Positions 1 through 46,203 are shown, counted from the first letter of the stretch. The stretch is DNA of 64,000 nucleotides from Opitutales bacterium (GCA_021772565.1 JAJFLR010000054.1:1-64000), one strand, 5' to 3'. Program-made: numbers and translations. The notes: generated by a model not told the origin, from the letters alone.

Positions 1-60
1 CGTTGTCGTAATCGTAATCGTTGTCGTGATCGAGATTCAACGATTACGATTACGACAACG
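1..60. repeat. 23-bp perfect inverted repeat
   Basis: Positions 1-23 and 38-60 are exact reverse complements, separated by a 14-base loop. The arms are built from variants of the hexamers cgtaat and cgttgt. A single-stranded copy would form a long hairpin. A related stretch of the same simple-repeat type occurs at 62900-62925. The left part may continue beyond the window. No gene is associated, and its function is unknown. Confidence 0.85.
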
Positions 61-78
61 ACAACGACAACGACAACG
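55..78. repeat. Hexamer tandem repeat (acaacg x4)
   Basis: Four perfect copies of acaacg run directly out of the right arm of the inverted repeat at 38-60. This looks like slippage expansion of the hairpin arm. The sequence from 79 to 232 shows no gene or recognisable signal. Confidence 0.8.
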
Positions 79-232
79 AAAGTGATAAATGACGGGATTT
101 AAACTTGCGATTGTAAATCAGTAATAACGGTCAAATTACTGAGGTCTGGACAAAAGGGGTAAGCCATTTACTTTCATTTTTCAACAGCCTCCAAGTTCGA
201 TGACTTGTATGAAGACTAAGCAACTTGAGGCA

Positions 233-246
233 CTCCGCTAGCGGAG
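233..246. repeat. 14-bp palindrome, dispersed repeat fragment
   Basis: CTCCGCTAGCGGAG is a perfect palindrome followed by gccctac. The reverse complement reads gtagggcctccgctagcggag, close to the hairpin at 42547-42565 (tagggccttcgcttgcgaag). It is probably a remnant of the hairpin repeat family seen at 9866, 42541, 44591 and 45740. Confidence 0.5.
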
Positions 247-299
247 GCCCTACAATGAAATTCAGAAGAATAATTGATATCCAGTGCCATGCTGAGTGT

Positions 300-704
300 T
301 TACCTACTATCAGTCAATGCATTCAAGATAGGACATTGCCTATGGCTAACATTCCCCGGACAAGCAACCGACAATTTTTTTAAGGCATTGCGCATGCGCT
401 TTAAGTATCTGATTTTCTGCTCAATTTCTTCCATTTTTTCGAGCGCTATATCTTTGAAAATTTCGCAATCTGATTTAATATCCTCACTCAATGCAAGTAG
501 TTCTCTGATTTCTCTGAGGGTAAAGCCAAGCGCTTTTGATCGTTTGATGAAATGAATGCGCGTTATGGTATTTTCAGGGTATTGGCGATAACCCGAATCT
601 GACCTTGGAGGTGCCGCGATTAGTTTTTCACGTTCGTAAAATCTGATCGTTTCAATTCCCAGTCCCGATTCCCTGGCAACTTTCCCTATGGTTAATCCTG
701 TCAT
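300..704 (-). CDS. merR: MerR-type mercury-responsive transcriptional regulator
   Basis: A DNA-binding repressor/activator of 134 residues. It has an N-terminal winged helix-turn-helix (residues 3-70, starting LTIGKVARESGLGIETIRFY), a long dimerisation helix and a C-terminal metal loop. Cysteines at 80, 115 and 124 have spacings of 35 and 9, the same as Cys82, Cys117 and Cys126 of Tn501 MerR. A mercury sensor is therefore more likely than ZntR or CueR. The reading frame stays open to a GTG at 764, but that extension lies over the promoter at 712-742. I take the ATG at 704, which starts at the usual MTGLTIGKVA and sits 7 bases after the -10 box. It is the last gene of the mer-type cluster, has its own operator, and follows the permease stop by about 35 bases. 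Orientation and position differ from classical divergent merR. Confidence 0.88.
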   Translation of the reverse strand: MTGLTIGKVARESGLGIETIRFYEREKLIAAPPRSDSGYRQYPENTITRIHFIKRSKALGFTLREIRELLALSEDIKSDCEIFKDIALEKMEEIEQKIRYLKRMRNALKKLSVACPGNVSHRQCPILNALTDSR

Positions 705-711
705 TCCTGTA

Positions 712-742
712 ATTATAACTCTATAGTTTACTACAGAGTCAA
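712..742 (-). promoter_or_regulatory. MerR-type promoter/operator of merR
   Basis: Read on the minus strand: -35 TTGACT (742-737), a 19-bp spacer and -10 TATAAT (717-712). The over-long spacer carries an imperfect dyad at 718-739. A 19-20 bp spacer with a dyad is the hallmark of MerR-family promoters. The TGA stop of the permease (741-739) lies inside the -35 box. Only 7 bases separate the -10 box from the merR ATG, so the transcript should start at or next to the start codon. Confidence 0.78.
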
Positions 743-1827
743 GTGTTGAAACGATTACTAACACGATTTACAATCAAACGCTTTAATGGCAGCGTATATA
801 GCAAAACCATCACAAGTATAAATGCTGAAATCTTATTGAACATTCCAATAGGGGTATTTTTCTGCACTTCGATATTCATAACGATTTCATGGCTGACCGT
901 ATGGTCAAAAATAAAACCTGCTATCCACGCTACAATAATGAGGGTAGAAAGGTAAACAAATGTTTCACATTTGCCAATTATTCGGAATAACGCAGTGATG
1001 GTTGTCGTGTTTGTTGCCGGGCCGGCGATTAACAGAACTAATGCAGCTCCCGGAGAAAATCCAATTTGAATCAAGGCCAAAGCGAGAGGAATAGAACCCG
1101 TGGCACAAACATAAAGTGGAATAGCAAATAAAGTGACAACGCCATATTCAACAATGCTATTTCCCAATAAGGGACGCAATGTATCTTCTGAAATTACTGC
1201 CATCATTAAACCTCCCAATAAAATGCCGATGAAAATATAATTACCAATTTCGTGCGGTAACGCGACAAAGCCTTCATAGAGACCGTTACGGATTCGCTTT
1301 TTCCAGTTAATCGGTATCGAGCTATATGCTTTTGGATTTTGCTGACAACAGGAATCCATATTGCCGAAATGCACATTCTTTTTTGAATTATTTGCTTGAT
1401 CTGCCGGCTTCGTTACTGAAATCAAATTAATGAAAATACCCGCTAACATACCGGAACAAAAGTCTGCCAATAATCGTGCAATAGTGAAAAATCCTCCCAT
1501 TAAACTATAACTGGCGGCGATACTGTCTATTCCCGTCTGTGGCGTAGTCGCAGTAAATGCAGCGACAGCGCCGGGCGAAGCGCCCTGTTTTCTGAGACTG
1601 GCAGCAACCGGTATCACACCACACGAACACAATGGTAATGGTATGCCGATTAGAACTGCTTTTAAGACACTTGATAAATTGTTTTTCAAGAGATGCTTTT
1701 TAATAAAATCGTCAGTGACAAACTGCGAAAATATTCCAGCTAAAGCAAAACCCAAGAGCAAGAATGGCGCCATGAGTTGAGTCAATGTCCAAATATTTTT
1801 TACTGTTTCAATTGCTATCTCATTCAT
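739..1827 (-). CDS. CSCG-motif metal permease (DUF318/SO_0444-type efflux family)
   Basis: An integral inner-membrane protein of 362 residues with about ten hydrophobic segments in two inverted halves. The first half carries PLPLCSCGVIPVAASL (cysteines 67 and 69). The second half carries a matching CATGSIPLALAL segment near residue 250. A polar loop near residues 150-165 holds a Cys-Cys pair. This signature belongs to the YraQ/DUF318 permease superfamily, whose members include ArsP and the SO_0444-type Cu/Zn exporters. The substrate is not known. In this operon a thiophilic metal, mercury or a relative, is the natural inference. It lies 27 bases after the outer membrane protein gene and its stop overlaps the merR -35 box. 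Confidence 0.8.
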   Translation of the reverse strand: MNEIAIETVKNIWTLTQLMAPFLLLGFALAGIFSQFVTDDFIKKHLLKNNLSSVLKAVLIGIPLPLCSCGVIPVAASLRKQGASPGAVAAFTATTPQTGIDSIAASYSLMGGFFTIARLLADFCSGMLAGIFINLISVTKPADQANNSKKNVHFGNMDSCCQQNPKAYSSIPINWKKRIRNGLYEGFVALPHEIGNYIFIGILLGGLMMAVISEDTLRPLLGNSIVEYGVVTLFAIPLYVCATGSIPLALALIQIGFSPGAALVLLIAGPATNTTTITALFRIIGKCETFVYLSTLIIVAWIAGFIFDHTVSHEIVMNIEVQKNTPIGMFNKISAFILVMVLLYTLPLKRLIVNRVSNRFNT

Positions 1828-1854
1828 CGTAATCTTCTGATTCTTTAATTTTCA

Positions 1855-2751
1855 TTAAAAATTAAAACGAAAACTTGTCGTTACAATAAAATCATTTTTC
1901 AGCGCCGTGCCATTGAGGTTTTGCAGGATGGGGAATTGCGCTGCTGCTTCAATTATAAAGCGTTTCGTAACATACTGCATTCCGGGTGCCAGATACCAGG
2001 CAACACCTCCTGAGTCAGGGTCGTTATTGCCGGCAATTTCGTTTTGCTGCTGCCAATAAAAATTACTTTCGAGCACGCCATAGAAATAATCCGGCGTTCC
2101 ATAACTTAATTTTTTTGGCAATAAGCGGTATTGCGCCGAGAAATCAGCACGTACTGCGTCGCCGAATTTAAACCCATTAGCTTTTGTATTTGCTTCATAG
2201 GCTAACGATGTATCGACTTGAAAATCCACCCGGGACCAGGTTAATACAGCACCGCCGAACGCATCCCATGATCCGGAACCGAGTTGAAAGGGTTGAGGAA
2301 ACTTGCCGAGACTATCAGAGTCGCTATCTTTGCCTGTTGGCACCTCAATACCTCCAAACAGCGCAAATCGTGTCGTCTCCTGAGGTCGATTTTGTTGATA
2401 AATTGTATAGCGGGTAAAAATCTTCAGGTCGCCTACCCCGGATGTTTTACGGATTGTCCGCCCCGTTAGTATTTCTGAATCCGAACGTTTATTCAAGTAA
2501 GGCACGACGCCGAATAGTGTCCATTTCTCATTGAGTCCGTAACCGAATACAACCGGAGATGCCCCAACCGTTAGCTCACGATTTGCCGTGGTTGGATCGT
2601 CTGTCGATTGCAGATATTTTATTTGACCTCTTAGAAGATATTCCCCTTCAGCTATTGGCAGAGCTGTGTTAAAGAGAATGGGGGCTGCCGGAAGAATATG
2701 CGGCAATACCACTGAAATAATCGCATAAAACCATCTATTTTTCATTTTCAA
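1855..2751 (-). CDS. Outer membrane beta-barrel protein of the mer-type cluster
   Basis: A 298-residue secreted protein. A signal peptide (about residues 1-22, ending in LPAAP) is followed by alternating amphipathic strands and a terminal aromatic residue (SFRFNF), as expected for a barrel inserted by BAM. The pattern (AEGEYLLRGQIKYLQS near the start, GLNEKWTLFGVVPYL, a GGIEVPTG turn) resembles the MetA-pathway/phenol-degradation transporter-like group (PF13557). It starts 16 bases inside the upstream heavy-metal-associated gene, so the two are translationally coupled. An outer membrane partner in a mercury-type operon is unusual. A role in metal passage across the outer membrane is inference only. 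A second possible start is ATG 2745. Confidence 0.72.
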   Translation of the reverse strand: MKMKNRWFYAIISVVLPHILPAAPILFNTALPIAEGEYLLRGQIKYLQSTDDPTTANRELTVGASPVVFGYGLNEKWTLFGVVPYLNKRSDSEILTGRTIRKTSGVGDLKIFTRYTIYQQNRPQETTRFALFGGIEVPTGKDSDSDSLGKFPQPFQLGSGSWDAFGGAVLTWSRVDFQVDTSLAYEANTKANGFKFGDAVRADFSAQYRLLPKKLSYGTPDYFYGVLESNFYWQQQNEIAGNNDPDSGGVAWYLAPGMQYVTKRFIIEAAAQFPILQNLNGTALKNDFIVTTSFRFNF

Positions 2752-3343
2752 AACCGAAAGCTCCGGTTAAGTTTTCCGGTAGTAATTGTATCGATGTTAC
2801 CGAAAGGTGAAATACGTTTGACTCACCTTTATCAATGATTCCGCTAACCAGAACAGTATGGTTCGTTTTCTGTATTTCGGCGAGTGATTCATGGCCCTTT
2901 TTATCTGCTGATTTCCTGGTCTCGGTAAGCAGTATTTTCAGTGACGAATGGCTGACATTCAAGAAGTATTGCTCGTGCTGTTTAGTTATTATACCTTTTG
3001 CTGTTACCGTCGTTTTGCCGGATGAAAATCCGGCCTTTCGTACAGCATTATTCAAATCCTCTACAGAGGTGAATGTTTTATCGTTTATTGTAATATGAGT
3101 ATTGCCGGTTTTTAAATCAATTTCGGCCTGAGCAACGCCATCGACCGCCTTTAATTTTTGCTCAAGGCCGGATATACAAAACGGACAAGTCAACCCTTCT
3201 ACCTCAATATTTACTTCTTTAATTTCAGCAAATACAGCACTTGTTTGAAAGAACATGCCAATTAATGCCGAAACAATAAATTGCTTATTCAGTAATGCGA
3301 ATAAATGCCGAAGTCGCCATTTTTTTTTAGTTTTCGAATTCAT
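2735..3343 (-). CDS. Secreted heavy-metal-associated (HMA) domain protein
   Basis: A periplasmic metal-binding protein of 202 residues. The signal peptide ends near AVFAE (residues 36-40). An HMA domain spans about 41-108 with the metal pair GLTCPFC (Cys53 and Cys56). A further roughly 90-residue domain contains two short hydrophobic strands and no cysteines. MerP-like proteins normally end after the HMA domain, so the C-terminal domain is an addition of unknown role. The frame is open upstream to 3523 inside the GDCCVxC gene. I choose the ATG at 3343 because it starts a proper signal peptide and has AGGAGA six bases upstream. That is one of the very few clear Shine-Dalgarno sites in this window, and it suggests the cluster came from another host. 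Confidence 0.82.
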   Translation of the reverse strand: MNSKTKKKWRLRHLFALLNKQFIVSALIGMFFQTSAVFAEIKEVNIEVEGLTCPFCISGLEQKLKAVDGVAQAEIDLKTGNTHITINDKTFTSVEDLNNAVRKAGFSSGKTTVTAKGIITKQHEQYFLNVSHSSLKILLTETRKSADKKGHESLAEIQKTNHTVLVSGIIDKGESNVFHLSVTSIQLLPENLTGAFGFENEK

Positions 3344-3365
3344 TTTTTCTCCTATTAACTTTAAT

Positions 3366-3593
3366 TTATAGCTTACTATTTGTACCACAACAGTCCTCAC
3401 CTTCATCCTGTTGAATCGGCGGACAGGCAACGTCGCCATAAGAACAATATACACAGCAATCACCTTTTTTCGGTCGCAGTGCTTTACCGCAGTTGGGACA
3501 TTTCCAGTAAACCTGACAGGCATCCGTCGGCATAGTCTCTTTGGATTTATTGCCGCATTCGGGACATGTTATAATTGATGCCAGTTTTATCAT
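3366..3593 (-). CDS. GDCCVxC-domain small cysteine-rich protein
   Basis: A small cytoplasmic protein of 75 residues with 11 cysteines. It has CPEC (10-13), CPNC (32-35), the family motif GDCCVYC (44-50) and a Cys-Cys pair near the end. The first two pairs resemble a zinc knuckle. The GDCCVxC family commonly accompanies MerT-type transporters and is sometimes a selenoprotein. Here the last motif residue is encoded by TGT, so it is a plain cysteine form. It lies 2 bases after the merTP stop and 22 before the HMA gene. A likely role is to bind or hand over thiophilic metal in the cytoplasm, by inference from context. Confidence 0.82.
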   Translation of the reverse strand: MIKLASIITCPECGNKSKETMPTDACQVYWKCPNCGKALRPKKGDCCVYCSYGDVACPPIQQDEGEDCCGTNSKL

Positions 3594-3595
3594 TG

Positions 3596-4198
3596 TTAGT
3601 TCGGGGCTAGGAATAACGTATATTGATCATTTGTTTTTGCATTCAAGATTTTGTCAACAGAGGTTTTATTCTGGTCATACGCCACGCGTGCATTACCGGT
3701 TTTCCAGTTTACTTTTGCATCTAATACCCAGGGTGTTTTTATGAGTGCTTCTTTAATGCCGACCGCACAGCCTGCGCAGGTCATGCCGTCAATTTTTAAT
3801 TCCGCAACCGATGTTTGCGAAGATGACCAGATAGCTGAATTAGCGGAATCGGGTGATAGTCTGTCATTGGCAATACCTGCAAGAAACGGCAGCAGAGCAT
3901 ATTGCATAATGGCATAGAAGACAAAACCGGTGCCAAAAATTAATCCGATTAGCTGAATATCTTTCAAGCGGTTATTTATCTTGCAGCAGCGATTTCTTTT
4001 TCTAATCGCAAGCCATGAGGCACCGGCCAAAATCAATAATCCAATGGTTATGAAAACCGGTTTATACGCATCCATGCCAAGAAATGCTGCTGTGCCACCG
4101 ACACCTATGAGCACAGGTATTATCGGCCCCAGGCAACAAAGTACCCCAAACAAACCGCCGGTTATGCCTAACCTGACTATCCATTTTGCTTCATTCAT
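3596..4198 (-). CDS. merT: MerT-MerP fusion mercuric transport protein
   Basis: A 200-residue inner-membrane transporter. A MerT part has three membrane segments: Cys21-Cys22 in the first (GVLCCLGP), and Cys71-Cys72 just after the second (RNRCCKI). The third is followed by a MerP-like HMA domain with MTCAGC (Cys141 and Cys144). This is the MerTP layout: the HMA domain captures Hg2+, the membrane cysteines carry it inward and the cytosolic cysteines release it. The frame is open to 4261, but that stretch overlaps the promoter at 4205-4236. The ATG at 4198 starts the normal MerT N-terminus. First gene of the operon. No MerA to receive the imported mercury is encoded nearby. Confidence 0.85.
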   Translation of the reverse strand: MNEAKWIVRLGITGGLFGVLCCLGPIIPVLIGVGGTAAFLGMDAYKPVFITIGLLILAGASWLAIRKRNRCCKINNRLKDIQLIGLIFGTGFVFYAIMQYALLPFLAGIANDRLSPDSANSAIWSSSQTSVAELKIDGMTCAGCAVGIKEALIKTPWVLDAKVNWKTGNARVAYDQNKTSVDKILNAKTNDQYTLFLAPN

Positions 4199-4204
4199 AA
4201 AAAT

Positions 4205-4236
4205 ATTATACACCCTGTAGTTAACTAAAGGGTCAA
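4205..4236 (-). promoter_or_regulatory. MerR-type promoter/operator of the mer-type operon
   Basis: Minus-strand -35 TTGACC (4236-4231), 20-bp spacer, -10 TATAAT (4210-4205). A 22-bp near-perfect dyad (4212-4233) with one symmetric mismatch fills the spacer and overlaps the -35 box, as in merOP. The start codon at 4198 lies 6 bases after the -10 box, so the message should be leaderless. Confidence 0.85.
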
Positions 4237-4273
4237 GAGTTTTATTGCGGGCGAGAAGCAAATGGAATTATCC

Positions 4274-4534
4274 TTAATGCTTATAAATGTCTTTTCGATG
4301 TCTGATTTTAACTACCGATACAATTAACTCTCCATCATTAATATGGTATAGAATCCTATAGTTTCCCTGCCTAACTCTATACTTTTCTTCGCCTGATAGC
4401 TTAATTGATCCCTGTGGCCAAGGGTCACTTGATAATCCCCGGATTTTATCTATTATTTTCTTTCGATTCTTTTTGGGAATTTTATCAATATCCTTAAAAA
4501 CAGAAGGCTTAATTAAAACTTTATAATTTTCCAC
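4274..4534 (-). CDS. RelE/ParE-family toxin
   Basis: An 86-residue toxin-like protein. It has the RelE/ParE pattern: a basic N-terminal strand (YKVLIKPSVFKDIDKIP), two helices, then KLSGEEKYRVRQGNYRILY and a final strand ending in KIRHRKDIYKH. The GNYRILY segment and the terminal Arg/His residues are typical of the RelE ribosome-dependent RNase fold. It overlaps the antitoxin gene by 14 bases, the usual coupling in such modules, with the antitoxin first. It sits just upstream of the mer-type operon on the same strand and could help stabilise it. Confidence 0.82.
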   Translation of the reverse strand: MENYKVLIKPSVFKDIDKIPKKNRKKIIDKIRGLSSDPWPQGSIKLSGEEKYRVRQGNYRILYHINDGELIVSVVKIRHRKDIYKH

Positions 4535-4742
4535 TTCGTTTTAATTCTTTAACAAAACTTTCAAAACTAATCGATTTCTCATTACGTCTTTCTTCAAAAC
4601 TATTCAAATCATCCAAGTCCTCAGACAAAGATTCTTTGACTGAGATATTCACCAATTCAGACAATGAAACACCTGTCTCTACAGCTTTTAATTTTATAGC
4701 TGTATGTAACTCTTCATCAAAATATACCGTTGCTCTTTTCAT
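4521..4742 (-). CDS. Ribbon-helix-helix antitoxin
   Basis: A 73-residue protein with an N-terminal ribbon-helix-helix DNA-binding fold (residues 1-45: KRATVYFDEELHTAIKLKA followed by GVSLSELVN) and a charged, probably unstructured tail that would wrap the RelE-type toxin encoded next. It likely represses its own operon. The first gene of the pair; its stop overlaps the toxin start. No Shine-Dalgarno is visible before the ATG at 4742. Confidence 0.78.
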   Translation of the reverse strand: MKRATVYFDEELHTAIKLKAVETGVSLSELVNISVKESLSEDLDDLNSFEERRNEKSISFESFVKELKRSGKL

Positions 4743-4865
4743 AAATTCAAGGTTGCGCTTAAACGTTAAAACGTCAATTTATATTTTTGTCGAACATCTG
4801 GAATGTTGTGCCGAGCGAATCGCGAATATCGGGAAAGAGAGCTAAAAGCCATCATTGTAAGATAT

Positions 4866-5552
4866 TTATGAACTTTCCAGAAATCGGCGTTTTAAGGTAA
4901 AGAAAAGCACTCCGAAAATAACGTATATAGTGGATATAACTAAACCACCATTATCAGATGTTACCCAGTCTATTAAAAGTCCAAAACCGGCACCTAGTAG
5001 AAAACTGAGAAATAGTGAGCAATAAAGCCAGATTTTCCAGGGATCGACATTGTGTCCTGCAAGGCACATCCCCGCTGCTTGTCCGAAGTCAGTGACAATT
5101 CCAGTGATGTGTGTTGTACGAAGAATGGCACCCCGATATCGTGTTGCCAGTGCATTCTGGAGGCCTGATGCAAAGGCAGCGAGCGGCAATGCAATACCTG
5201 GATGGTTACGTTCCATGAGGGTTGCGATACCAAAGATAATTCCAATAGACATTAGAGAACGGCCGTAAGGTCGTTCAAGATTAAATCTCGGATGATGAAT
5301 GACTAAGCCGGCAGTTATTGCACCCATAATAAATGCGATAGTTATCAGTAGCAGCGTTATAGCAGCAGCAATTTCCGCATTAGAGTGGTAATTATGGATA
5401 TAGAGGCGAAGGATGTCTCCGGCAAGATAACCAACAGCAAAGTTCAAAAGTCGAACAAAGTGTATATTGATCGCTGCAGATAGAAAACAGAGAATACAAG
5501 CTCCGGCGGCAATCAAATGTTGTGGATTATATTTGATAGTCCGATGGGCCAT
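4866..5552 (-). CDS. DUF1275 (YoaK family) membrane protein
   Basis: A 228-residue integral membrane protein with six hydrophobic segments. The diagnostic DUF1275 stretch is ASGLQNALATRYRGAIL followed by RTTHITGIVTDFG (about residues 127-157), along with an early FLSAAINIHFVRLLNFAVG segment. The biochemical role of the family is not established. It stands alone between the toxin-antitoxin pair and the ECF sigma gene on the same strand. No operator or Shine-Dalgarno is visible. Confidence 0.8.
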   Translation of the reverse strand: MAHRTIKYNPQHLIAAGACILCFLSAAINIHFVRLLNFAVGYLAGDILRLYIHNYHSNAEIAAAITLLLITIAFIMGAITAGLVIHHPRFNLERPYGRSLMSIGIIFGIATLMERNHPGIALPLAAFASGLQNALATRYRGAILRTTHITGIVTDFGQAAGMCLAGHNVDPWKIWLYCSLFLSFLLGAGFGLLIDWVTSDNGGLVISTIYVIFGVLFFTLKRRFLESS

Positions 5553-5957
5553 TTTTAATATTTAAAATATATACTATTAATTCACCTGCATTTTGGCTGA
5601 TACATTTTTCATGCGATGGTAACGAATTATCATACATTTTTTTAATTTGTTATGAATAATATTTTTTGAAAAGATAACTGAGTATTACAACTCAAATCTT
5701 CATAGAATCTAATTTCAGGTCTAATTTGTGATATAATCAATTTCAGTATGTTGGACAAAGTCTTACTGACAATTTTTATTTGCTCATTATTAAATTCCGG
5801 AAAATGCATTAAATAATTTGATGTATATTTAGAGTTCTAAATATTTATCAATGTTGTATGGTTCAATACTCTATTAAACAAAAAAATTAATTTCTTTCAT
5901 AGTTAACGTGCGTTAGAATTTTGCCGGATACTGAGTTTTACCTTTATTTATGAAAAC
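5553..5957. other. AT-rich intergenic gap, no gene seen
   Basis: About 405 bases without a plausible reading frame. The only structure I see is an 8-bp inverted repeat (TGAGTTTT at 5932-5939 with AAAACTCA at 5953-5960) that overlaps the stop of the sigma factor gene. It lacks a T-run on the minus strand, so it is not a convincing terminator. The promoter of the DUF1275 gene should lie here but no clear boxes stand out. Confidence 0.5.
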
Positions 5958-6515
5958 TCATAAATTTTTCAGAGACTTTCGAGCACGATATATTCGTGTT
6001 TCAACTGCCTTGATACTAACTCCTAAAACTTTTGCACAATCTTCATAGGAATTGTCTTCCAATACACAAAAGATGAGAGGAAATTTTAGTTTGTCCGGAA
6101 GATTATGTATGGCCGTTTGTATTGCTTCAAGATTTTCGCTTTGCTCTAATTTTTCGTTAGCGAGCCTGTCGGAATCAATGATTGAATCTTTTAGTGAGCG
6201 GTTATTATTGTCATGTATCGATGCGTCAATTGAATGTTCAACGGACCTCTTTTTGTTTTTTCGATGGTGATCATGGCACAGATTTCTGGCGATAGTAAAT
6301 ACCCATGTTTTTACTGTGGCTTTGGGGTTAAATCGATCAGCTTTAAAAAATACCCTAACAAAAGTTTCTTCTGTTAATTCTTCAGCATCTGCTTCATTGC
6401 CAGTGTATCGCAATATAAAATGAAACACAGCAGTTTTATGCCGAGACATTAATTTTCTGAGACTGCTTTCATCGCCCTGTTTTATGGCTTCGATAGATGT
6501 CAGATCACTGTCCAT
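5958..6515 (-). CDS. ECF RNA polymerase sigma factor, CnrH-like
   Basis: A 185-residue sigma-70 family factor of the extracytoplasmic function type. Region 2 spans about 20-90 (YTGNEADAEELTEETFVRVF, then KTWVFTIARNLCHDHHRK). A linker of about 45 residues follows, then region 4 at about 125-183 (LPDKLKFPLIFCVLEDNSY, then KVLGVSIKAVETRIYRARK). It is the third gene of a minus-strand set after a CnrY-like and a CnrX-like gene, 14 bases behind the sensor. That is the gene order of cnrYXH in Cupriavidus, so the factor is probably released in response to periplasmic nickel, cobalt or another metal. Targets are not visible; the DUF1275 gene downstream is one candidate. Confidence 0.85.
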   Translation of the reverse strand: MDSDLTSIEAIKQGDESSLRKLMSRHKTAVFHFILRYTGNEADAEELTEETFVRVFFKADRFNPKATVKTWVFTIARNLCHDHHRKNKKRSVEHSIDASIHDNNNRSLKDSIIDSDRLANEKLEQSENLEAIQTAIHNLPDKLKFPLIFCVLEDNSYEDCAKVLGVSIKAVETRIYRARKSLKNL

Positions 6516-6529
6516 CTATATCAATATTT

Positions 6530-6985
6530 TCATTGAGGTTTACTTAGAGCCTGAACAGCAAACTGTTTAAGTTTTTCTCGCTTTTCAGGCGTTAGCACTT
6601 CAAACATGTCATAATAATGTTTAATTGCTAATTGTTGAAGATTCCCATGTATAGCATGAATTTCACTTACTTTGGCAGTCACTTCAGGAGTATATTTATC
6701 ATTACTCTGAAGTAGTTTGGAAAGCTGAGCTATTTTATCTTTAAATTCCTTTTCGAGCTCATATTTTCTGGATTGATATTTCTTTTCAAATGCATGAATT
6801 TTTTCTTCTTCGGATTGAGTTAATTCGAGTTGATCATGGAGCCATTGGTGGGGTTCATCAGATTTGGGATTATTTTTGTTATGTGCAATAATAGAAAATG
6901 TCGTATAACATACTGAGATACAGAGTACAACCAATACAACTATAAATGCAAAGACCCTTATTACCACTTTACGCTTATCTATCAT
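6530..6985 (-). CDS. CnrX-like periplasmic metal sensor
   Basis: A 151-residue membrane-anchored periplasmic protein. One membrane helix (residues 8-33) is followed by a helical hairpin domain rich in charged residues. Five positions match the CnrX metal ligands (His42, His46, Glu63, His119, Met123) with one constant offset of +4: His46 and His50 in HQWLH, Glu67, then His123 and Met127 in HYYDM. This makes a Ni/Co-type sensor much more likely than a generic Spy/CpxP chaperone. It follows the CnrY-like gene by 10 bases and precedes the sigma factor. In the known complex, metal binding to X releases H from Y. Confidence 0.8.
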   Translation of the reverse strand: MIDKRKVVIRVFAFIVVLVVLCISVCYTTFSIIAHNKNNPKSDEPHQWLHDQLELTQSEEEKIHAFEKKYQSRKYELEKEFKDKIAQLSKLLQSNDKYTPEVTAKVSEIHAIHGNLQQLAIKHYYDMFEVLTPEKREKLKQFAVQALSKPQ

Positions 6986-6995
6986 AAGTAAGATT

Positions 6996-7322
6996 TTATT
7001 TAATGATAAATTGAAAACTTTGAGAATCAGTCACTGTGTTAAACCCTAAAGCTTTATTAGCCAAATAGTTGGTTGTTTCCAAATAGTTCAATTTAATTAG
7101 AGATACTGAAACTATTGAACTTAAAATTACGACAATAGCAAAAGTTGATATAACAAATCCTGTTTTGTTGAACAATAGATTCAACCAACCTAAAGTGCTT
7201 TCATCCGGAAGGCTTCTTTGTTGTATCTTTCTCAATACGTTAGTTTCAAGATTTATTGGACATTCAGGTAATGAGTTATCATGAATTCGTTTTATTATTT
7301 TATCTATAACTATATCTTTCAT
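6996..7322 (-). CDS. CnrY-like small membrane anti-sigma protein
   Basis: A 108-residue protein with a polar cytosolic part (residues 1-52), one membrane helix (about 53-76, GFVISTFAIVVILSSIVSVS) and a short periplasmic tail. Size and layout fit CnrY, a roughly 95-residue single-span anti-sigma factor. Sequence similarity cannot be judged by eye. The assignment rests on topology and on being first in a Y-X-H ordered set. It has no zinc-binding anti-sigma motif (HxxxCxxC). No Shine-Dalgarno precedes the ATG. Confidence 0.65.
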   Translation of the reverse strand: MKDIVIDKIIKRIHDNSLPECPINLETNVLRKIQQRSLPDESTLGWLNLLFNKTGFVISTFAIVVILSSIVSVSLIKLNYLETTNYLANKALGFNTVTDSQSFQFIIK

Positions 7323-7420
7323 AATATTGTTTAACGTATTTATTAAAAAATAGACTCAAAAAAATTTAATAAAATTGCAAATTAATCGCCAAGTTTGAAA
7401 ATACTGACAGATCAAAAATG

Positions 7421-7434
7421 GAGGGACTTCCCTC
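7421..7434 (-). terminator. Short hairpin, possible terminator of priA
   Basis: GAGGG and CCCTC form a 5-bp GC-rich stem with a 4-base loop. On the minus strand it is followed after two bases by ATTTTTG. It lies about 75 bases past the priA stop and about 100 before the CnrY-like gene, where a terminator would be expected. The stem is short, so the call is tentative. Confidence 0.4.
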
Positions 7435-7508
7435 GTCGGCATTGAATTAAGTGGACAGGAATGTTAACAAGGAAATAAGTGTGTGTTTACTTCAATTTAA
7501 ATTTTTTT

Positions 7509-9776
7509 TCAGGATAAATTCACCGGATCTATATCGAGAAGCTCAATCACATCTTTATCAAATTTAAAGTTTTTTCTAATTTCGGCAAGATGTGGAATAA
7601 TCCTGGATACATTTTTGACAAAATACCAAACCTGAAAACGGTATTGGTCTTTCATTTTTTCTATCGGTGCGGGTGAAGGCCCCCTGATTTCAAGTGGATG
7701 TAATTTTGCATTTTTTTTCATTTCATTTTCCAGGTGCTGTACCCACTGTTGGGCATAAAATGAAACCTTATCCGGATTTCTTCCTCTAAACAGATGACGG
7801 ATCAAATGCCTGAATGGAGGATAGTTATACGACTTTCGTTGTTCAAGTTCTTCTTTGAAATATCCATCAAAATCTGCTCGTCGAGCAAATTGGATCGGTG
7901 CACTGTAAGGCAAAAAAGATTGAGCGACCACTTCTCCCGACTGGTCACCTCTGCCACTTCTTCCGGCGACTTGAACCAATAATTGAAAAGTGCGCTCTGA
8001 TGCCCTGAAATCTTGAATATGTAAAGATAGATCCGCATCGATTAACCCAACTAATGTTACATTAGGAAAATCCAGCCCTTTAGCTATCATTTGCGTGCCG
8101 ACAAGAATATCAATTTTACCGATTTTGAAATCAGAAAATATTTTGCGAAACAAATTTTTCTTCTGCATCGAATCTGAATCAAGTCGAACAATTTTAGCAG
8201 TTGGTAAAAATTTTTTAACTATGTCTTCAACTTTTTGAGTCCCCATACCACGCCATCTTATTTTTTCCGATTGGCACTTGGGACAATATTTTGGGGCCTG
8301 ATTTTGTTTACCGCAAATATGACATTTTAGTTTTTCGTCAGTGCGATGATAGGTCATGGCAATACTACAATGTTCACATGTTTCAATATGTGAGCAATCA
8401 GGACAGAGCATACTCGAAGAATAACCTCTACGATTAATAAATAAAATAGCTTGTTCCTTGTCTTCAAAACGTTGTTTTAACTTTTCTATTAACATTCGTG
8501 ATAAAACCACATGTCCTTTTTGATTGATTACTTCTCTGGTCATATCCACGACGTGTACTAGCGGAAGACTTCGATTATCAACACGATTCAAAATTTTATT
8601 AATACTGTATTTCCCAATTTCTACATTGTAGAGAGATTCCAAAGATGGAGTTGCGGACCCCAATAAACAAACAGCGTTATTTAACCTGGCACGATAAATG
8701 GCAACATCTCTCCCGTGATATCGCGGTGATTCATCTTGTTTGTAAGCCGGTTCGTGTTCTTCATCGACAATTATCAAACGTAAATTTTGCACAGGCGCAA
8801 AAACAGCAGAGCGTGGACCGACAACAACATTTGCTTCACCAGTCGCCAATGAGTGCCAGGCATCCAATTTTTCTCCTTCCGAAATCATACTATGCCAAAC
8901 AATAATTTTTGAGCCGCATTCATTTTCTAATCTGGATCGAACCTGACCGACCGTTTGAGGGGTAAGTGCGATTTCCGGCACCAGAAGAATTGCGCCACCT
9001 CCGCCAGCAACCACTTTTTTTAGAAGATGAATATAAACTTCAGTTTTCCCGGAACCAGTTACACCGTGCAGTAAATGTGATTTAAATTTGTGACGATCTA
9101 TACTTTCGCCGATATCCATCACAGCAGTTTCCTGTTCCTGATTAAGAATAATTTTTTTTGGCAGAGTAGTTTCACTAAAACCTATTTCGTCATCGTAGAC
9201 AGTTCTATTAATCTGCGTTAAATTTTCCTTTATAATCTTTTTGTCGATCAATGTTTTGCAGCTACTCGAATTCACACCTAATCGATTAAGAACTTTTGAT
9301 TTTTGAACTGCATTAGTTTGTTGGCTTAAAAAATTATAAAGCTTCGCCTGTTTGGGTGCTTTTTTTTGTAACTGTATCAGTGATTCGGCATCCAATTTAT
9401 TATCAATTTGAATAAATAAATTACTCTTCAACCCCATGCCTTTTCTAGCAGCAGTGGGAATTATTGCTTCCAGCACAGAGTCATAGGTAAGCGCATAGTA
9501 AGATCTCATCCAAACAACCAACTTGATTAATTCAAAAGTTAGTACTGAGAAAGGATAAACAATTTGCAGAATAAATTTTAGTTTATTCACCGGACAATCA
9601 TCCGGCGCAACTAAATCAGAAACTATCGCCAGCTCTGTGCGACTTAATAAAGGTACTCGAACTAGCTGTCCAATTTTAATATCATTACTAATTGTTAGAG
9701 GAACTTTATAACCTAAAACTTTATCAAACCCGGTCAGAGGAAAAACGGAAATTGCCTGAGTAGTTTTTTCTTTCAT
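7509..9776 (-). CDS. priA: Primosomal protein N' (PriA), replication restart helicase
   Basis: A 755-residue SF2 DNA helicase that reloads the replisome at stalled forks. The N-terminal DNA-binding region (1-110) binds the 3' end at forks. The helicase core has Walker A GVTGSGKTE, the DEEH box, and YHGRDVAIYRA. Eight cysteines of the zinc-binding insertion occur in CPDCSHIETCEHC and the following CHICG and CPKCQ segments. Motif VI is QVAGRSGRGDQSG. Length and motif order are normal for the family. It stands alone with no gene coupled on either side. The ATG has no Shine-Dalgarno. Confidence 0.96.
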   Translation of the reverse strand: MKEKTTQAISVFPLTGFDKVLGYKVPLTISNDIKIGQLVRVPLLSRTELAIVSDLVAPDDCPVNKLKFILQIVYPFSVLTFELIKLVVWMRSYYALTYDSVLEAIIPTAARKGMGLKSNLFIQIDNKLDAESLIQLQKKAPKQAKLYNFLSQQTNAVQKSKVLNRLGVNSSSCKTLIDKKIIKENLTQINRTVYDDEIGFSETTLPKKIILNQEQETAVMDIGESIDRHKFKSHLLHGVTGSGKTEVYIHLLKKVVAGGGGAILLVPEIALTPQTVGQVRSRLENECGSKIIVWHSMISEGEKLDAWHSLATGEANVVVGPRSAVFAPVQNLRLIIVDEEHEPAYKQDESPRYHGRDVAIYRARLNNAVCLLGSATPSLESLYNVEIGKYSINKILNRVDNRSLPLVHVVDMTREVINQKGHVVLSRMLIEKLKQRFEDKEQAILFINRRGYSSSMLCPDCSHIETCEHCSIAMTYHRTDEKLKCHICGKQNQAPKYCPKCQSEKIRWRGMGTQKVEDIVKKFLPTAKIVRLDSDSMQKKNLFRKIFSDFKIGKIDILVGTQMIAKGLDFPNVTLVGLIDADLSLHIQDFRASERTFQLLVQVAGRSGRGDQSGEVVAQSFLPYSAPIQFARRADFDGYFKEELEQRKSYNYPPFRHLIRHLFRGRNPDKVSFYAQQWVQHLENEMKKNAKLHPLEIRGPSPAPIEKMKDQYRFQVWYFVKNVSRIIPHLAEIRKNFKFDKDVIELLDIDPVNLS

Positions 9777-28908: not shown

Positions 28909-29652
28909 TCAGATCCTATACTTTTTAATTCCAAATATCCTACCCTGTGATTTCTCCTGCAGTAATAAAACCATATCAGTTGTCCCTTGGGGCAGTGTTG
29001 TTTGCAGAATCATTTTTTCACCTTCCCAAACTCCAACATATTTAATATCTTGAACGATGTTGTAATTCACAATTCTCTTTCCCCGATTTTCTCCTCGTCC
29101 AACATTAGTAGAATGTTTTGAATTATAGGTAATAAGAATTATATCACCACTAGTTGGCTTTATTGATTTTGATTCAGCAATATTTATTTGTATGCTATTA
29201 TTACCAGACGCTTCGACATTGATTGGTATGTTGATAAAATTATTTTTTGCTTTTTCTATTAATCGCAAAACCTGACTGCGATTTGAGCCTACTGTTTCTA
29301 ATCGCCCATCGATAACAATTTGCGGTGTATAGATAGTTTTCAAACCCAACGATTGCGCATATTTGCGCTGGCGTTTGCTTTTATCCGGAGCTGAAAATGG
29401 ATCTTTCCATCCGATGTAATTCCAGTAATCGACATGGAATGATAACGGGATTACATCATCAGATTCATAAACTAATTCCCCAAGAAATTTATCTGCCGGT
29501 GGACAGGAAGAACAGCCCTGAGAGGTATACAATTCGACTAATATTGGCCTACCTAATTTTCTGCTTACTGCAACATCTGTATCACTTAATAATTCTAAAT
29601 TAATAATACATACGTTGAAAAATATAAAAACTATAACTAACCGTTGTTTCAT
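28909..29652 (-). CDS. DUF1223 secreted thioredoxin-fold protein
   Basis: A 247-residue exported protein. A signal peptide covers about 1-24. The thioredoxin-like N-terminal half has LVELYTSQGCSSCPPADKFL (Cys-x-x-Cys near 47-50) and the family phrase SFHVDYWNYIGWKDPF, with TPQIVIDG near residue 110. A C-terminal beta domain follows. The DUF1223 family has no proven role. The CxxC and extracytoplasmic location suggest thiol-disulfide chemistry. It lies directly downstream of two envelope methionine sulfoxide reductase genes on the same strand (12 bases after msrA), which suggests it may deliver reducing power or share their stress response. Confidence 0.85.
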   Translation of the reverse strand: MKQRLVIVFIFFNVCIINLELLSDTDVAVSRKLGRPILVELYTSQGCSSCPPADKFLGELVYESDDVIPLSFHVDYWNYIGWKDPFSAPDKSKRQRKYAQSLGLKTIYTPQIVIDGRLETVGSNRSQVLRLIEKAKNNFINIPINVEASGNNSIQINIAESKSIKPTSGDIILITYNSKHSTNVGRGENRGKRIVNYNIVQDIKYVGVWEGEKMILQTTLPQGTTDMVLLLQEKSQGRIFGIKKYRI

Positions 29653-29664
29653 GAAACATTATTT

Positions 29665-30267
29665 CTAAAAATTACTGATGTTACTCCAAATTTCTTTTAA
29701 TCGTTTATCACGTCCACAACTATATCTATAAAATTTATAACGACGAGGATTCTTTAAATAATAATCCTGATGATAATCTTCTGCAGAATAAAATGTAGTT
29801 GCCGCAATAATCTCTGTAGCAATTTCCTTATGAAGGACAATATTAGCTTTTTTCTTCGTTTTTTCAGCTAGTTCTTTTTGTTGGTTATCCAAATAAAATA
29901 TTGCTGTTTGATAAGTGCGACCTCGATCACAAAACTGTCCTCCTCCATCAATTGGATCAATATTCTTCCAAAACACTCGAAGTAATTTTTTATAGTCAAT
30001 TTTCTTAGGATCATATTTTATTTGGATGGCTTCTATATGACCTGTCGTCCCAGAAGACACATCACTGTAATTTGGATTTTTAGTATGTCCGCCAGTGTAT
30101 CCAGATGTGGTCGAAATTACACCCTCTAAATTGTCAAACGGTGGTTCCATACACCAAAAGCAACCTCCGGCAAAAATGGCAGTTTTATATTCGTCTGAGT
30201 TATTTTTTTCAGCACTCGATAACAATGGTATCAAAAAAATAAGAATAAAATAAGAATAAACTTTCAT
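29665..30267 (-). CDS. msrA: Peptide-methionine (S)-S-oxide reductase MsrA, exported
   Basis: A 200-residue enzyme reducing the S form of methionine sulfoxide. The catalytic motif GGCFWCMEPPF has nucleophile Cys36. GYTGGHTKNPNYSDVSSGTTGH and DPIDGGGQFCDRG follow. Resolving cysteines are likely in the C-terminal YSCGRDKR. A cleavable signal sequence (residues 1-18, ending LLSSA) places it outside the cytoplasm. It overlaps msrB by 4 bases (msrB first), a tight operon with the DUF1223 gene next. Confidence 0.94.
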   Translation of the reverse strand: MKVYSYFILIFLIPLLSSAEKNNSDEYKTAIFAGGCFWCMEPPFDNLEGVISTTSGYTGGHTKNPNYSDVSSGTTGHIEAIQIKYDPKKIDYKKLLRVFWKNIDPIDGGGQFCDRGRTYQTAIFYLDNQQKELAEKTKKKANIVLHKEIATEIIAATTFYSAEDYHQDYYLKNPRRYKFYRYSCGRDKRLKEIWSNISNF

Positions 30268-30782
30268 TGTTTTGGTTCTTCAATTTTCTCAGGTATGAAT
30301 TTTAAGGCAATTCCATTATTACAATAGCGAAGCCCTGTCGGAGCCGGCCCATCCTTAAAAATATGTCCCATGTGACCACCACATCTTGCACAATGATATT
30401 CAGTTCGTGGAAAGCCAATTTTATAATCAGTTTTTTCTTCAATATGACCCTCTATAGCTTTCCAAAAACTGGGCCACCCGGTTCCACTATCAAATTTCTT
30501 ATCTGAGGTAAACAATTCCAGATCGCAACCCGCGCAAACAAATTTCCCATGACGTTTTTCAGTATTAAGCGGACTGGTAAAAGCACGTTCCGTCCCTTCC
30601 TCCCTTAAAATAAAATATTCATCATCAGATAATTTTTTTTTCCACTCTCCATCACTGAGCTCTATTTTCTTTATTAAAGGATTATTTTTCTCACTAACAT
30701 TTTCTTTTTTATTTCCCATCAAATAAATGAATGCAGAAGTGAGTATAACAACTAATAAATATATTAAATTTCTTTTTTTCAT
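30264..30782 (-). CDS. msrB: Peptide-methionine (R)-S-oxide reductase MsrB, membrane-anchored
   Basis: A 172-residue enzyme reducing the R form of methionine sulfoxide. An uncleaved-looking N-terminal anchor (residues 5-22) is followed by the MsrB domain. Two CxxC zinc pairs (CAGCD and CARCG) and FDSGTGWPSFW are present. The catalytic segment LRYCNNGIALKF has the nucleophile cysteine in place of selenocysteine. Usual sequence at that place is CxNS; here the last residue is Gly. First gene of an msrB-msrA-DUF1223 operon for repair of oxidised envelope proteins. Confidence 0.93.
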   Translation of the reverse strand: MKKRNLIYLLVVILTSAFIYLMGNKKENVSEKNNPLIKKIELSDGEWKKKLSDDEYFILREEGTERAFTSPLNTEKRHGKFVCAGCDLELFTSDKKFDSGTGWPSFWKAIEGHIEEKTDYKIGFPRTEYHCARCGGHMGHIFKDGPAPTGLRYCNNGIALKFIPEKIEEPKQ

Positions 30783-42694: not shown

Positions 42695-44516
42695 CTACTT
42701 CTTCTGCCGATGCAGACTCGGATCGACCACTGCAGCCATGGCATTTTCATCCATCGTTCCACCAAAAAATTTATTTACTCTAGCTGCACACTCTTGTGGA
42801 TTCTCAACCGTTAATTTATGACTAACAAATAGCGCGTCCACCTTCGGATGATTTTCCAGAATGGCTTTTTCCAATTCGTAATAACCGCGCGGATTATCTT
42901 CATCAGCTTCACGCTGACCATCGGTCAGTGGCTCAATACCTCCTGCTGCCAACATTTGCATCATCATCGATGTCCCTGATCTGGGTAATCCTGAGACAAT
43001 TGTTATCACTTCTTTGGTATCTAAATCACGAGCGACAACTTCCTCTTTAAATTTTTGCATTGCTTCTTCAGATGCTTTACCAAGCTCTTCTTCAAACTCA
43101 GTGATATCCTGATTTTGCGGCAATGTGGTAACCTCCGGTAAACCTCTGCCTTTACGCACCTGCACGATATTTTTTCGGGCCAGTTTGGCCAGTTTGATAT
43201 GCTGCTCAGCTTTATCAAATTCTTTCAGGCGATTTTTATAAATGTAGGCTAACCGTTTATGGGCTTCAGCATGATTCGGACTTTGCATGACAGCAACCTG
43301 CAAAGCTTTTTCAGAATACTCTTTTTTATTTTCTAAAATTTTATCAAACGTCACACGCATTTTGTCAGTAAGTTCGAGTGCTTGTTGGCATTGATAAAGT
43401 TGTATGCCAAAACGGTGTTCCTCCGGCCATTTTTGCCATAGTTCTTCAAAAATTGGTATGGCATTGAGGTAACGACCGGCATCGATATACGATCGAGCCA
43501 AATTGTATTTTAATTCGCGCACATCTTGTTCAACCGCTTTTTCCTTATTTTCATCCGGCTCTTCAATATAGCCGAGAGCCACCAGTTGGTCGATCGCCTC
43601 TTTTGCTTCAATCGGATCGAGCTTTTTATCCGGTGGGTGCATACCATCCTCGCCCGCAACATCGTCCCAACTCGGTATAGTTTCAATTTTTTGTGGTTCT
43701 TCAAAAGCCGTTGAGATAACTTTGCCGTCAAAATCCTGGCCAACAGCCAAACCAAAAAGGTGCAGGATTGTCGGAGCCAGGTCGAGTAAGTTGGTACCAT
43801 AGACCCGTTCGTCTTTTTTAATACCGGGTCCTTTCATCGCAAAAATTCCATAGTGCCGATGTTCTTCAGCCGGTCCAGCCGGTTCCATTGGGATGTGTTG
43901 CGGGCGCAAATGATCGGGGTGAAATCCATGATCTGAATTTAAAATTATAGTAGTATCCTCACCAGCCAGAGTTAACAATGCTCCCAACATCAAATCGTGG
44001 TAACGATAGCCGGCCTCAGTTACCCCTTTGTACATTTCAAAATCTTCCTCTTTGACCCACGGACTGCGCGGCGGATGGTAACGCATAAAGCCGTGACCAA
44101 AGTGATCGATAGCATCGTAATAAATCGCCATGTAATCCCACGGTTCGAGTTGCATAAGAGCAGTTCCGGCAGCATGGATAGTTGTGCAATCGGCAATAAT
44201 TTTTGCCAGACTTACCAAACGTTTGTCCTTTTCCTGATCGACATCAGCAGCATTCGGCACAAATGGCAAAATATGTTCCTGGTCGAGTTCCGCCGGGTGC
44301 AGACGCAGTTTAGCCAAATTATCAGATAGTTCAGCCGGTGGCAATCGATGTCCACAACATTGGAGACAAAACCGGGTAGAGCGTGGCGATATTACCGATG
44401 ACGCCCTCGTTGATAAATTTTTCCAGATTGGGCATTTTACCCTCATCGATCAAAGGATTAATCACTCGCCAATCGGCGGCATCCCAGCCTATATGTAAAA
44501 CTTTTTGTTTAGCCAT
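42695..44516 (-). pseudogene. Broken phosphodiesterase-TPR-sulfotransferase gene
   Basis: Frame 1 (44516-44331) encodes the start of a type I phosphodiesterase/nucleotide pyrophosphatase-like enzyme: [11 protein letters not shown] and [11 protein letters not shown] with nucleophile Thr56. It then hits a stop at 44331. Frame 2 (from about 44345 to 42695) continues the same protein: HPAELDQEHILPFVP, IYYDAIDHFGHGFM, NSDHGFHPDHLRP, TPR-like repeats, and a P-loop sulfotransferase start ITIVSGLPRSGTSMMMQML. About 70-90 residues are missing at the junction, where TTGCCACCGG may be a deletion micro-homology. A second gap is likely after GYYELEKA: the central sulfotransferase part seen in relatives is absent although the frame is kept. 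Deletion sizes are inferred from family recall. Confidence 0.8.
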
Positions 44517-44590
44517 AGAAAATTTCTATGCTAAAAATTTATTGTAAGGTAAATAAAATAATTTGGTTGGCAGAGAAATATACTCGCGCC

Positions 44591-44944
44591 TTTTAGGTTG
44601 TAGGTGGTAAAAGATAGGTAGTAGCTTGTAGGTAGTAGGTTGTAGGAATTGCGAAAGACGGTAATGATTCCCCGAAGCGTAGCTTCTTTGGAGTGCGGTG
44701 TTTTAACACCGCTTTTTGACGATACGGGTTACATTTCTGAAAATATCAAAGATGTTTTTGAAATCTACGACACTTTCAATTCGTTCGAAAAGCGGCGCCA
44801 AGTCGCCGCACTCCAAAGAGGTTTTCGCCTCAAAGATTTTCCCACAAGTCATTATTGAATTTCTACTTACTCAAAAGTATTATACTGAATGTAAGATATC
44901 TCCATTTCACTCCCAATACAGTATTTACAACCTACAACCTAAAA
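44591..44944. mobile_element. MITE-like element with 15-bp terminal inverted repeats, copy A
   Basis: ttttaggttgtaggt (44591-44605) is exactly inverted at 44930-44944. Between them lie hairpins gaagcgtagcttc, ggtgttttaacacc, gcggcgccaagtcgccgc and gaggttttcgcctc. The central part (about 44651-44880) is repeated in the same direction at 45743-45975. No transposase is encoded. The element ends 8 bases before the stop of the PIN-domain gene. It fills most of the 435-base gap between the broken phosphodiesterase gene and the VapC-like gene. No target duplication was recognised. Confidence 0.65.
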
Positions 44945-44951
44945 AGAGTCA

Positions 44952-45374
44952 CTAAAAGTGATCAAACGGATTAACGACAACTACGCCTTCATATGACTGG
45001 CCTGCATTCAAATCTTCAGTCAATAATTTTTTCACTTCTGCCTTGTGGGCAGCTGCAATTATTAGTGCATCCCATAGCGAAATATGATACTGATCAACAA
45101 TCTCAAGAGCATGGGTATAAAGTTGTGTTGTGCCATTGATTATTTTCCAATAGAGAAGAGGCTGAACTGCTTTACGAATGTTTTGCGTAGTGAAGCCACG
45201 TCGAAGAAGTTGATGTGAAAATTCTTGAAGAACCTGCACACTGATTACGGCAGCCTTATCTTGTTGAAAATAAGGTTTCAAGTATTCTCGAGCACGTTTT
45301 TGCTTTTCTGGCTCACGTTGATCGTAAGCGTATAAAAACAGATTGGTGTCAATGAAGATGTCGGCGTATTCCAT
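44952..45374 (-). CDS. PIN-domain toxin, VapC-like
   Basis: A 140-residue ribonuclease-like toxin. PIN domain acidic residues are seen in FIDTNLFLYAYDQREPEK (Asp9), SVQVLQEFSHQL (Glu near 54), SLWDALIIAAAH (Asp near 102) and the late LLTEDLNAG (Asp near 119). All four positions of the active site appear intact. It overlaps nothing but follows the antitoxin gene by 3 bases, the usual operon. The module is flanked by the two repeat elements at 44591 and 45740. Confidence 0.87.
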   Translation of the reverse strand: MEYADIFIDTNLFLYAYDQREPEKQKRAREYLKPYFQQDKAAVISVQVLQEFSHQLLRRGFTTQNIRKAVQPLLYWKIINGTTQLYTHALEIVDQYHISLWDALIIAAAHKAEVKKLLTEDLNAGQSYEGVVVVNPFDHF

Positions 45375-45377
45375 CTG

Positions 45378-45620
45378 TTATTTGTGATTTCCACGACCAT
45401 AGAGTTCATCTCGGACAAAGTCTTCTGAGGCACCAGGCAGCCCTTCCTGCATCAATGCCCAAGCTTGATCCTGTGCTTTTCGATAGTCAGCATTGTCCAT
45501 ATTTTCAAGCTGTTTTTCCAATAATTCAGCGACAATCGCTGAAAGTGATTTTCCTTCATCAACTGCAAAATGCTTGGCGCGTTTGCCAAGTTCATCAGAA
45601 ATTCTAAGTGTAATATTCAT
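45378..45620 (-). CDS. Antitoxin of the VapC-like pair (RHH-type)
   Basis: An 80-residue protein beginning MNITLRISDELGKRAKHFA, which is a ribbon-helix-helix N-terminus. A helix with KSLSAIVAELLEKQLEN follows, then an acidic tail that should clamp the toxin. It is the first gene of the pair and the likely autorepressor. Its upstream 583 bases up to 46203 contain copy B of the repeat element. Confidence 0.8.
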   Translation of the reverse strand: MNITLRISDELGKRAKHFAVDEGKSLSAIVAELLEKQLENMDNADYRKAQDQAWALMQEGLPGASEDFVRDELYGRGNHK

Positions 45621-45739
45621 AGTAAAATTTTTAAATTAATTTATGTTTGCACACAACATAAAAGTATAAGATAGCGTGCAGCACGCAAATTAAATATATT
45701 TATCCTGATATTTACTTTTGTAAAGAAGAAGTTCTAGGG

Positions 45740-46057
45740 ATAGCCGAAAGACGTTTAATGATTCCCTGAAGCGTAGCTTCTTTGGAGTGCGGTGCTTCAG
45801 CACCGCTTTTTGACGTTACGGTTTACTCTTCTCTAAATTTCAAAGTTGTATTTCGAATCCAACGACTTAATCATTTCGAAATTATAGTGGCGACAAGTCG
45901 CCGTAGTTCAAAGAGGTTGAAGTCTCAAAGATATTTGCCACAAGAATTGAGACAATTTCTACTTACTCAACATTATTATTCTGAATTTTCTGAATTCTAA
46001 ATGTAAGATGTCGTCATTTCATTATCCAATACCGTAACGTACAACCTACCACCTAAA
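45740..46057. mobile_element. MITE-like element, copy B
   Basis: Same order of signals as copy A: gccgaaagacg, gattccctgaagcgtagctt, a cggtgcttcagcaccg hairpin, tggcgacaagtcgcc, tttctacttactcaa and finally acaacctaccacctaaaa. It is direct relative to copy A with about 70-80 percent visual identity over the core. The left end has lost the ttttaggttgtagg word. After the right end comes cgtctttggtgcgaga, which is roughly the inverse of tactcgcgcc at the left of copy A. The rest of the gap (45621-45739 and 46058-46203) shows no gene. Confidence 0.6.
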
Positions 46058-46203
46058 AAACGTCTTTGGTGCGAGATAAAATACCTATCTCTCAATCAGT
46101 GTTCTATAACTTTCTGAATTACTAATTAAATTTAGACTGTATAAATATTGCATGCTTCAGTTGACAGCAAAGTTGTCGATTATTAGTTTTCACATTTTTA
46201 AAA

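Follow-up and report, generated by a model that had tools for sequence, protein, structure and literature searches.

The six-gene cluster at the start of the window (the whole 64,000-nucleotide stretch of DNA that was analysed, from an Opitutales bacterium) has the regulator, operators and transporter of a mercury resistance operon, while merA is missing and genes for a GDCCVxC protein and an exporter-family permease are present. It is interpreted as an Hg(II)-switched operon for capture, buffering and efflux, derived from a mer operon, at a probability of roughly one half. Modules of MerT(P) and GDCCVxC lacking merA are known already; what differs here is the missing merA together with a GDCCVxC gene and a permease of an exporter family. 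In the standard models, MerA is the point of every mer system, and Hg that is imported and not reduced would be expected to damage the cell.

The window lies at the start of contig C74 in the host genome, a 3.57 Mb assembly of 124 contigs that is 95.3% complete with 0.4% contamination. All six genes are on the minus strand between window positions 4198 and 300, as the sequence-only reading of 300–4236 had it, in the order merTP (3596–4198), GDCCVxC (3366–3593), a secreted HMA protein (2735–3343), an outer-membrane beta-barrel protein (1855–2745), a SO_0444-family permease (739–1827) and merR (300–704). Each gene has an ATG start, that of merR being the ATG at 704 rather than the GTG at 764, and the successive intergenic gaps are 2, 22, -11, 27 and 34 bp. 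This tight spacing makes the first five genes, merTP to the permease, look like a single transcription unit. The sequence-only reading was correct in placing them in one direction with merR, but overlooked that there are two operators, that merR is in a transcription unit of its own and that the cluster is at a contig edge, with 299 bp remaining beyond merR. Since these 299 bp contain no minus-strand frame of at least 50 aa and lead into a hairpin and short-repeat block at the contig edge, the operon probably ends at merR. The block is 78 bp long (window 1–78), with an inverted repeat of 32-nt arms and CGTTGTCGTAATCG-type units, and is probably the repeat that interrupted the assembly.

Operator 1 (4205–4236, minus strand) is located before merTP and has the form TTGACC-20 bp-TATAAT, with a dyad, ACCCTTTAGTTAACTACAGGGT, in which 10 of 11 positions pair. 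Operator 2 (712–742, minus strand) is located before merR and has the form TTGACT-19 bp-TATAAT, with the dyad ACTCTGTAGTAAACTATAGAGT. The 19–20 bp between the -35 and -10 sequences is the spacing of the MerR operator of canonical mer operons. Two promoters are therefore predicted in the cluster, one of them merR's own. A joint operator pattern, searched for in the whole genome with up to 3 mismatches, matches only these two sites, with two plus-strand matches that are the same palindromes; as the pattern was built from the two sites, this result describes their uniqueness and is not an independent test of significance. The sequence-only reading had raised the matter of a merA gene elsewhere under the same operator. 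This was looked for across the genome, and in the 3.57 Mb assembly this operator was found before no other gene, merA included.

The best-scoring family for the regulator is TIGR02051, to which it aligns over its full length as a divergent member at 134.3 bits, below the cut-off of 150.85. Cysteines 80, 115 and 124 are present with the spacing of Hg-type MerR, as had been reported from the sequence alone. CadR and PbrR align with Cys in the same three columns, however, and the argument that these residues by themselves prove Hg was dropped. A literature search for CadR and PbrR operator sequences found nothing. The nearest solved structure is 4UA1, which we take to be the Hg-sensing MerR of B. 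megaterium.

The MerTP fusion joins a MerT-like membrane part to a C-terminal MerP/HMA domain. Its best-scoring family is MerTP (NF033556), with a full-length alignment (12–193) at 83.9 bits, below the cut-off of 180. The transport cysteines of MerT and MerP in canonical mer operons are all found: a CC pair in TM1 (C21/C22), a CC in the cytosolic loop and GMTCAGC in the HMA domain. C21, C22, C72 (cytosolic), C141 and C144 (both in the HMA domain) are invariant across nine sequences.

The GDCCVxC protein is small and Cys-rich, contains the GDCCVxC motif and scores 102.6 bits against NF041374, for which the cut-off is 40. It has nine family-conserved cysteines (C10, 13, 26, 32, 35, 46, 47, 50 and 57), eight of which are present in 42 of 42 sequences and C35 in 41 of 42, followed by a C-terminal CC pair that most GDCCVxC proteins share. 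The structure model (pLDDT 56) is too poor to use, and the profile gives weak matches to solved structures, the best being a zinc-ribbon-type RNA polymerase fragment. A literature search under the name GDCCVxC gave no direct match; the family was formerly the hypothetical selenoprotein GOS_B (PMC13188914). A homologue in another genome (G098, L013) contains an in-frame TGA, for which a selenocysteine reading was rejected because the TGA is at a conserved aromatic/Trp position and not at a Cys; the homologue appears to be a disrupted gene rather than one for a selenoprotein. The family was found at 35 loci in the Balneolota, Bacteroidota, Proteobacteria, Actinobacteria, Verrucomicrobia and NC10, and 347 plasmid records match it. 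GDCCVxC genes also adjoin RND and P1B-ATPase genes and, because they are found beside CadR and CDF genes as well, the protein may serve several soft metals.

The secreted HMA protein has a signal peptide, a MerP-like HMA domain (CPFC) and a C-terminal beta-rich domain. Both domains are present in its structure model (pLDDT 71), for which the best match among solved structures is MerP (1osd). Its gene is preceded by AGGAG, the clear Shine-Dalgarno site that had been noticed in the cluster. Homologues of the beta-barrel protein (PF13557) are 56%, 52% and 29% identical (in genomes G063, G030 and G326, respectively) and all are beside metal genes. The permease (ArsP_1/DUF318; PF03773) scores 309.7 bits against NF033936, passing the curated cut-off of 300, and this membership of an exporter family agrees with the earlier suggestion that it is a putative exporter. 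It contains the motif PLCSCG, in which C67-S-C69 is invariant in 18 sequences, as is C241, and its central loop has a CC pair; no solved structure is related to it in sequence. At four loci in the host phylum (L159, L160, L161 and L171), a SO_0444-family permease has an HMA domain fused to its C-terminus, an arrangement that links HMA carriers to this permease as putative partners. Mutants of SO_0444 are sensitive to Zn and Cu, and on the basis of mutant fitness it is regarded as a Zn/Cu efflux protein (PMC3219624), while a relative in the family is induced by Cd and Cu (PMC10092412). No report of Hg export by the family was found in the literature.

Relatives from the host's own order indicate the metal. 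The MerTP proteins of four such genomes (G019, G038, G048 and G021) are in one clade with that of the window (FastTree support 1.0), and in all four a merA ending in SCCAT directly follows merTP. The window MerR is 52% identical to that of G048; this exact pairing has a weak support of 0.29, and the wider MerR clade, which includes a genome with an adjacent merA (G198), has a support of 0.89. The G048 operator, TTGACC-TTGTAGTATACTACAGGGTG-TAGACT, closely resembles operator 1, and nearly the operator 1 sequence precedes merR-x-merTP-merA in G048 and G021. Because the MerR, operator and MerTP of these relatives serve a true merA, the metal of the operon is very probably Hg. The complete genome G222 (5,957,605 bp) has four equal-scoring copies of merTP with merR alongside (L125, L126, L127 and L128), which suggests a mobile element.

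A broader specificity is nevertheless to be considered, in which the cluster is an efflux operon for soft metals in general (Zn/Cd/Cu/Pb) that has borrowed mer parts and for which Hg is not the main substrate. The curated family of the permease is one of Cu/Zn proteins (NF033936; PMC3219624), the neighbours of GDCCVxC at other loci include the CadR, CDF, RND and P1B-ATPase genes, and CadR and PbrR share the three MerR cysteine columns. These points give the explanation some weight, yet it is rather unlikely, given that MerR, operator and MerTP are all closest to the merA operons of the same order and that the nearest solved MerR is the presumed Hg sensor.

The additional genes also have precedents near mercury genes. 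In genome G030 (L180) the genes run in one direction as merR-HMA-barrel-NHL-merTP-merA-merF-like, with a merA ending in SCCAV. The HMA-barrel pair therefore belongs to mer operons of the host's order, and the possibility that the two are generic extras was ruled out by their location within this complete mer operon. Nor is this type of operon unique, as GDCCVxC recurs with MerT(P) and without merA in other genomes. One 4.3-kb contig of genome G063 contains the barrel, ArsR, an ArsP-type permease, GDCCVxC, merTP and a divergent merR, and no MerA above the cut-off was found in that genome. Likewise, an HMA lipoprotein, the barrel, ArsR and an ArsP-type permease are together in genome G326.

The absence of MerA and MerB claimed from the cluster extends to the assembly. 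A whole-genome search with TIGR02053 returned four flavoproteins at 266–368 bits, all below the cut-off of 454, and the C-terminal Cys pair of MerA is in none of these four strong matches. The search with PF03243 gave no match for MerB. The assembly is thus without the feature that marks a canonical mer operon, a reductase with a C-terminal Cys pair. There is one P1B-ATPase in the genome above its cut-off.

The assembly could have missed a merA that is unlinked or past the contig edge, in which case the mer system would be complete. The incompleteness of the assembly, its 124 contigs and the position of the cluster at a contig end leave room for this. It is improbable, however, as the 299 bp after merR are empty of minus-strand frames of the size sought, there is no third operator in the 3.57 Mb, and G063, with a similar gene set, also has no MerA above the cut-off.

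It has also been considered that reduction occurs in trans, with a glutathione-reductase-like flavoprotein reducing Hg(II) that GDCCVxC delivers; the C-terminal CC of GDCCVxC would then replace the C-terminal Cys pair of MerA. Operons in the Balneolota have such a flavoprotein directly after merTP-GDCCVxC, a truncated one is found by merT-GDCCVxC on a Methylobacterium plasmid, and the C-terminal CC is widespread in the family. The host genome has a copy that is about 41% identical to the Balneolota flavoprotein (C98:8065–9381; L004:1483–2826), with a GTCALRGCxPKK motif. That copy is away from the cluster, has no operator, is beside a glutamate-dehydrogenase-like gene, scores below the MerA cut-off and is from a family without tested Hg activity, and there is little likelihood that it completes the pathway.

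Of 13 genomes in which MerT(P) is next to GDCCVxC (12 compared and the host), 10 are without a MerA above the cut-off. Such merA-less pairs recur across phyla and on plasmids, which supports the interpretation of the pair as a working module. In Tn5563 on plasmid pRA2 the order is merR, merT, merP, GDCCVxC, transposase, with the GDCCVxC gene at L070:4992–5204, next to merP; published maps of the transposon show only merP, merT and merR, the GDCCVxC gene being absent from them (PMC4785139, PMC4133298). Decay of a mer operon, with merA lost and the remainder a relic or a cost, has a precedent in the published label 'defective mer locus' for Tn5563 (PMC4785139), but is very unlikely here, where six frames are open, neither the key cysteines nor the two operators are damaged, the genes are tightly spaced and the merA-less pairs recur in other phyla.

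The cluster had been described by eye as richer in GC than its surroundings, and its GC content is indeed 41.3% against 35.5% in the rest of the window, a value reached in 1 of 224 windows of equal size. Directly upstream of the operon, window 4274–4742 contains frames for a RelE/ParE-like toxin (86 aa) and a ribbon-helix-helix-like antitoxin (73 aa), assigned by eye, and a second GC-rich gene (43% GC) is at 4866–5552. The higher GC, the toxin-antitoxin-like pair and this second gene fit acquisition. Since the kin of MerTP and MerR come from the same order, any transfer could be within the host's taxonomic order. No Tn3-family transposase or terminal repeats were seen in window 1–8000, where the contig itself ends at base 1. 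Elsewhere in the window, again read by eye, consecutive DUF1223-like, MsrA-like and MsrB-like genes (oxidative protein repair) are found at 28909–30782, and another GC-rich patch (42–45%) at 42695–47358 contains two phosphodiesterase-like frames on opposite strands with a PIN-domain-like toxin between them.

In the preferred interpretation of capture, buffering and efflux, Hg(II) would bind MerR at the two operators and switch on merTP-GDCCVxC-HMA-barrel-permease and merR. The secreted HMA protein would capture periplasmic Hg(II), as would the MerP-like domain of MerTP, and the MerT cysteine pairs would pass the metal into the cytosol where, without MerA, the Cys-rich GDCCVxC protein would take it up and buffer it. 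The SO_0444-family permease, perhaps loaded by an HMA carrier, would then return Hg(II) across the inner membrane, and the beta-barrel may be its route across the outer membrane. The net outcome would be capture, buffering and export, not volatilisation. The sequence itself gives the gene content, the conserved ligands for metal, the restriction of the operators to this cluster, the lack of MerA and MerB in the assembly and the kinship of MerR, MerTP and operator with merA operons. The order of hand-over, the direction of transport by the permease, the role of the barrel and a resistance phenotype are what we infer from this gene set. An engineered MerT/MerP combined with a metallothionein accumulates Hg, which shows that import can work when it is paired with a thiol sink (PMC6215804). 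The sequence-only reading had proposed a resistance circuit of transport or sequestration only; the assembly without a reductase and the exporter-family permease are in accord with this, while export of Hg itself would be a predicted step. Several points count against capture and efflux: the metals linked to SO_0444 relatives are Cu, Zn and Cd and in no case Hg, MerTP and MerR are below the curated NCBI cut-offs, to import Hg and then export it is an odd use of energy, GDCCVxC is also next to CadR and CDF genes, merA could be within the ~5% of the genome that the assembly lacks, and the C98 flavoprotein could act as a reductase in trans.

As a tentative generalisation, reductase-free resistance to Hg(II) may proceed from MerT(P) to GDCCVxC to an exporter, here the SO_0444-family permease and elsewhere perhaps nearby P1B, RND or ArsP pumps, with GDCCVxC as a mercury or soft-metal carrier and with 'defective' loci such as Tn5563 being functional. 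For genomes with MerB only, a review regards it as an unanswered question how Hg(II) is disposed of when MerA is absent (PMC8261052). With a Hg-type switch of its own and an exporter, a conserved merA-less set allows reductase-free disposal to be tested directly. Such a set also points to a role for GDCCVxC, a family that is common on plasmids and uncharacterised, and calls the 'defective mer' label of Tn5563 into question. The literature search turned up no paper describing a bacterial operon for Hg efflux independent of merA.

Among known systems, the Tn21/Tn501-type mer operon shares with the window cluster the MerR logic and the functions of MerT and MerP, but has a divergent merR with one shared operator, an essential merA, no GDCCVxC and no exporter. 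The SO_0443-SO_0444 Cu/Zn efflux locus of Shewanella oneidensis likewise has a SO_0444-family permease and a MerR-type regulator in an operon, but the regulator is ZntR-like, the phenotype is for Zn/Cu and no MerTP is reported (PMC3219624). The Balneolota merR-arsR-merTP-GDCCVxC(-flavoprotein) operons have GDCCVxC directly after MerTP, as in the window, and some include a secreted HMA protein and barrel; they differ in the added ArsR, in the flavoprotein present in some and in having no adjacent SO_0444 permease. Tn5563 and the window cluster both combine MerR, MerT, MerP and GDCCVxC with no merA, and the window cluster is in this sense of the Tn5563 type. In Tn5563, however, merT and merP are separate, merR is divergent, the locus is transposon-borne and the HMA, barrel and permease genes are lacking, whereas the window has the fusion and those genes. 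The operons of G030, G048, G021, G019 and G038 have the MerR and MerTP families in common with the window, and that of G030 the HMA protein and barrel as well. These operons include a true merA with a C-terminal CC and lack both GDCCVxC and the permease, and in the window it is the reverse.
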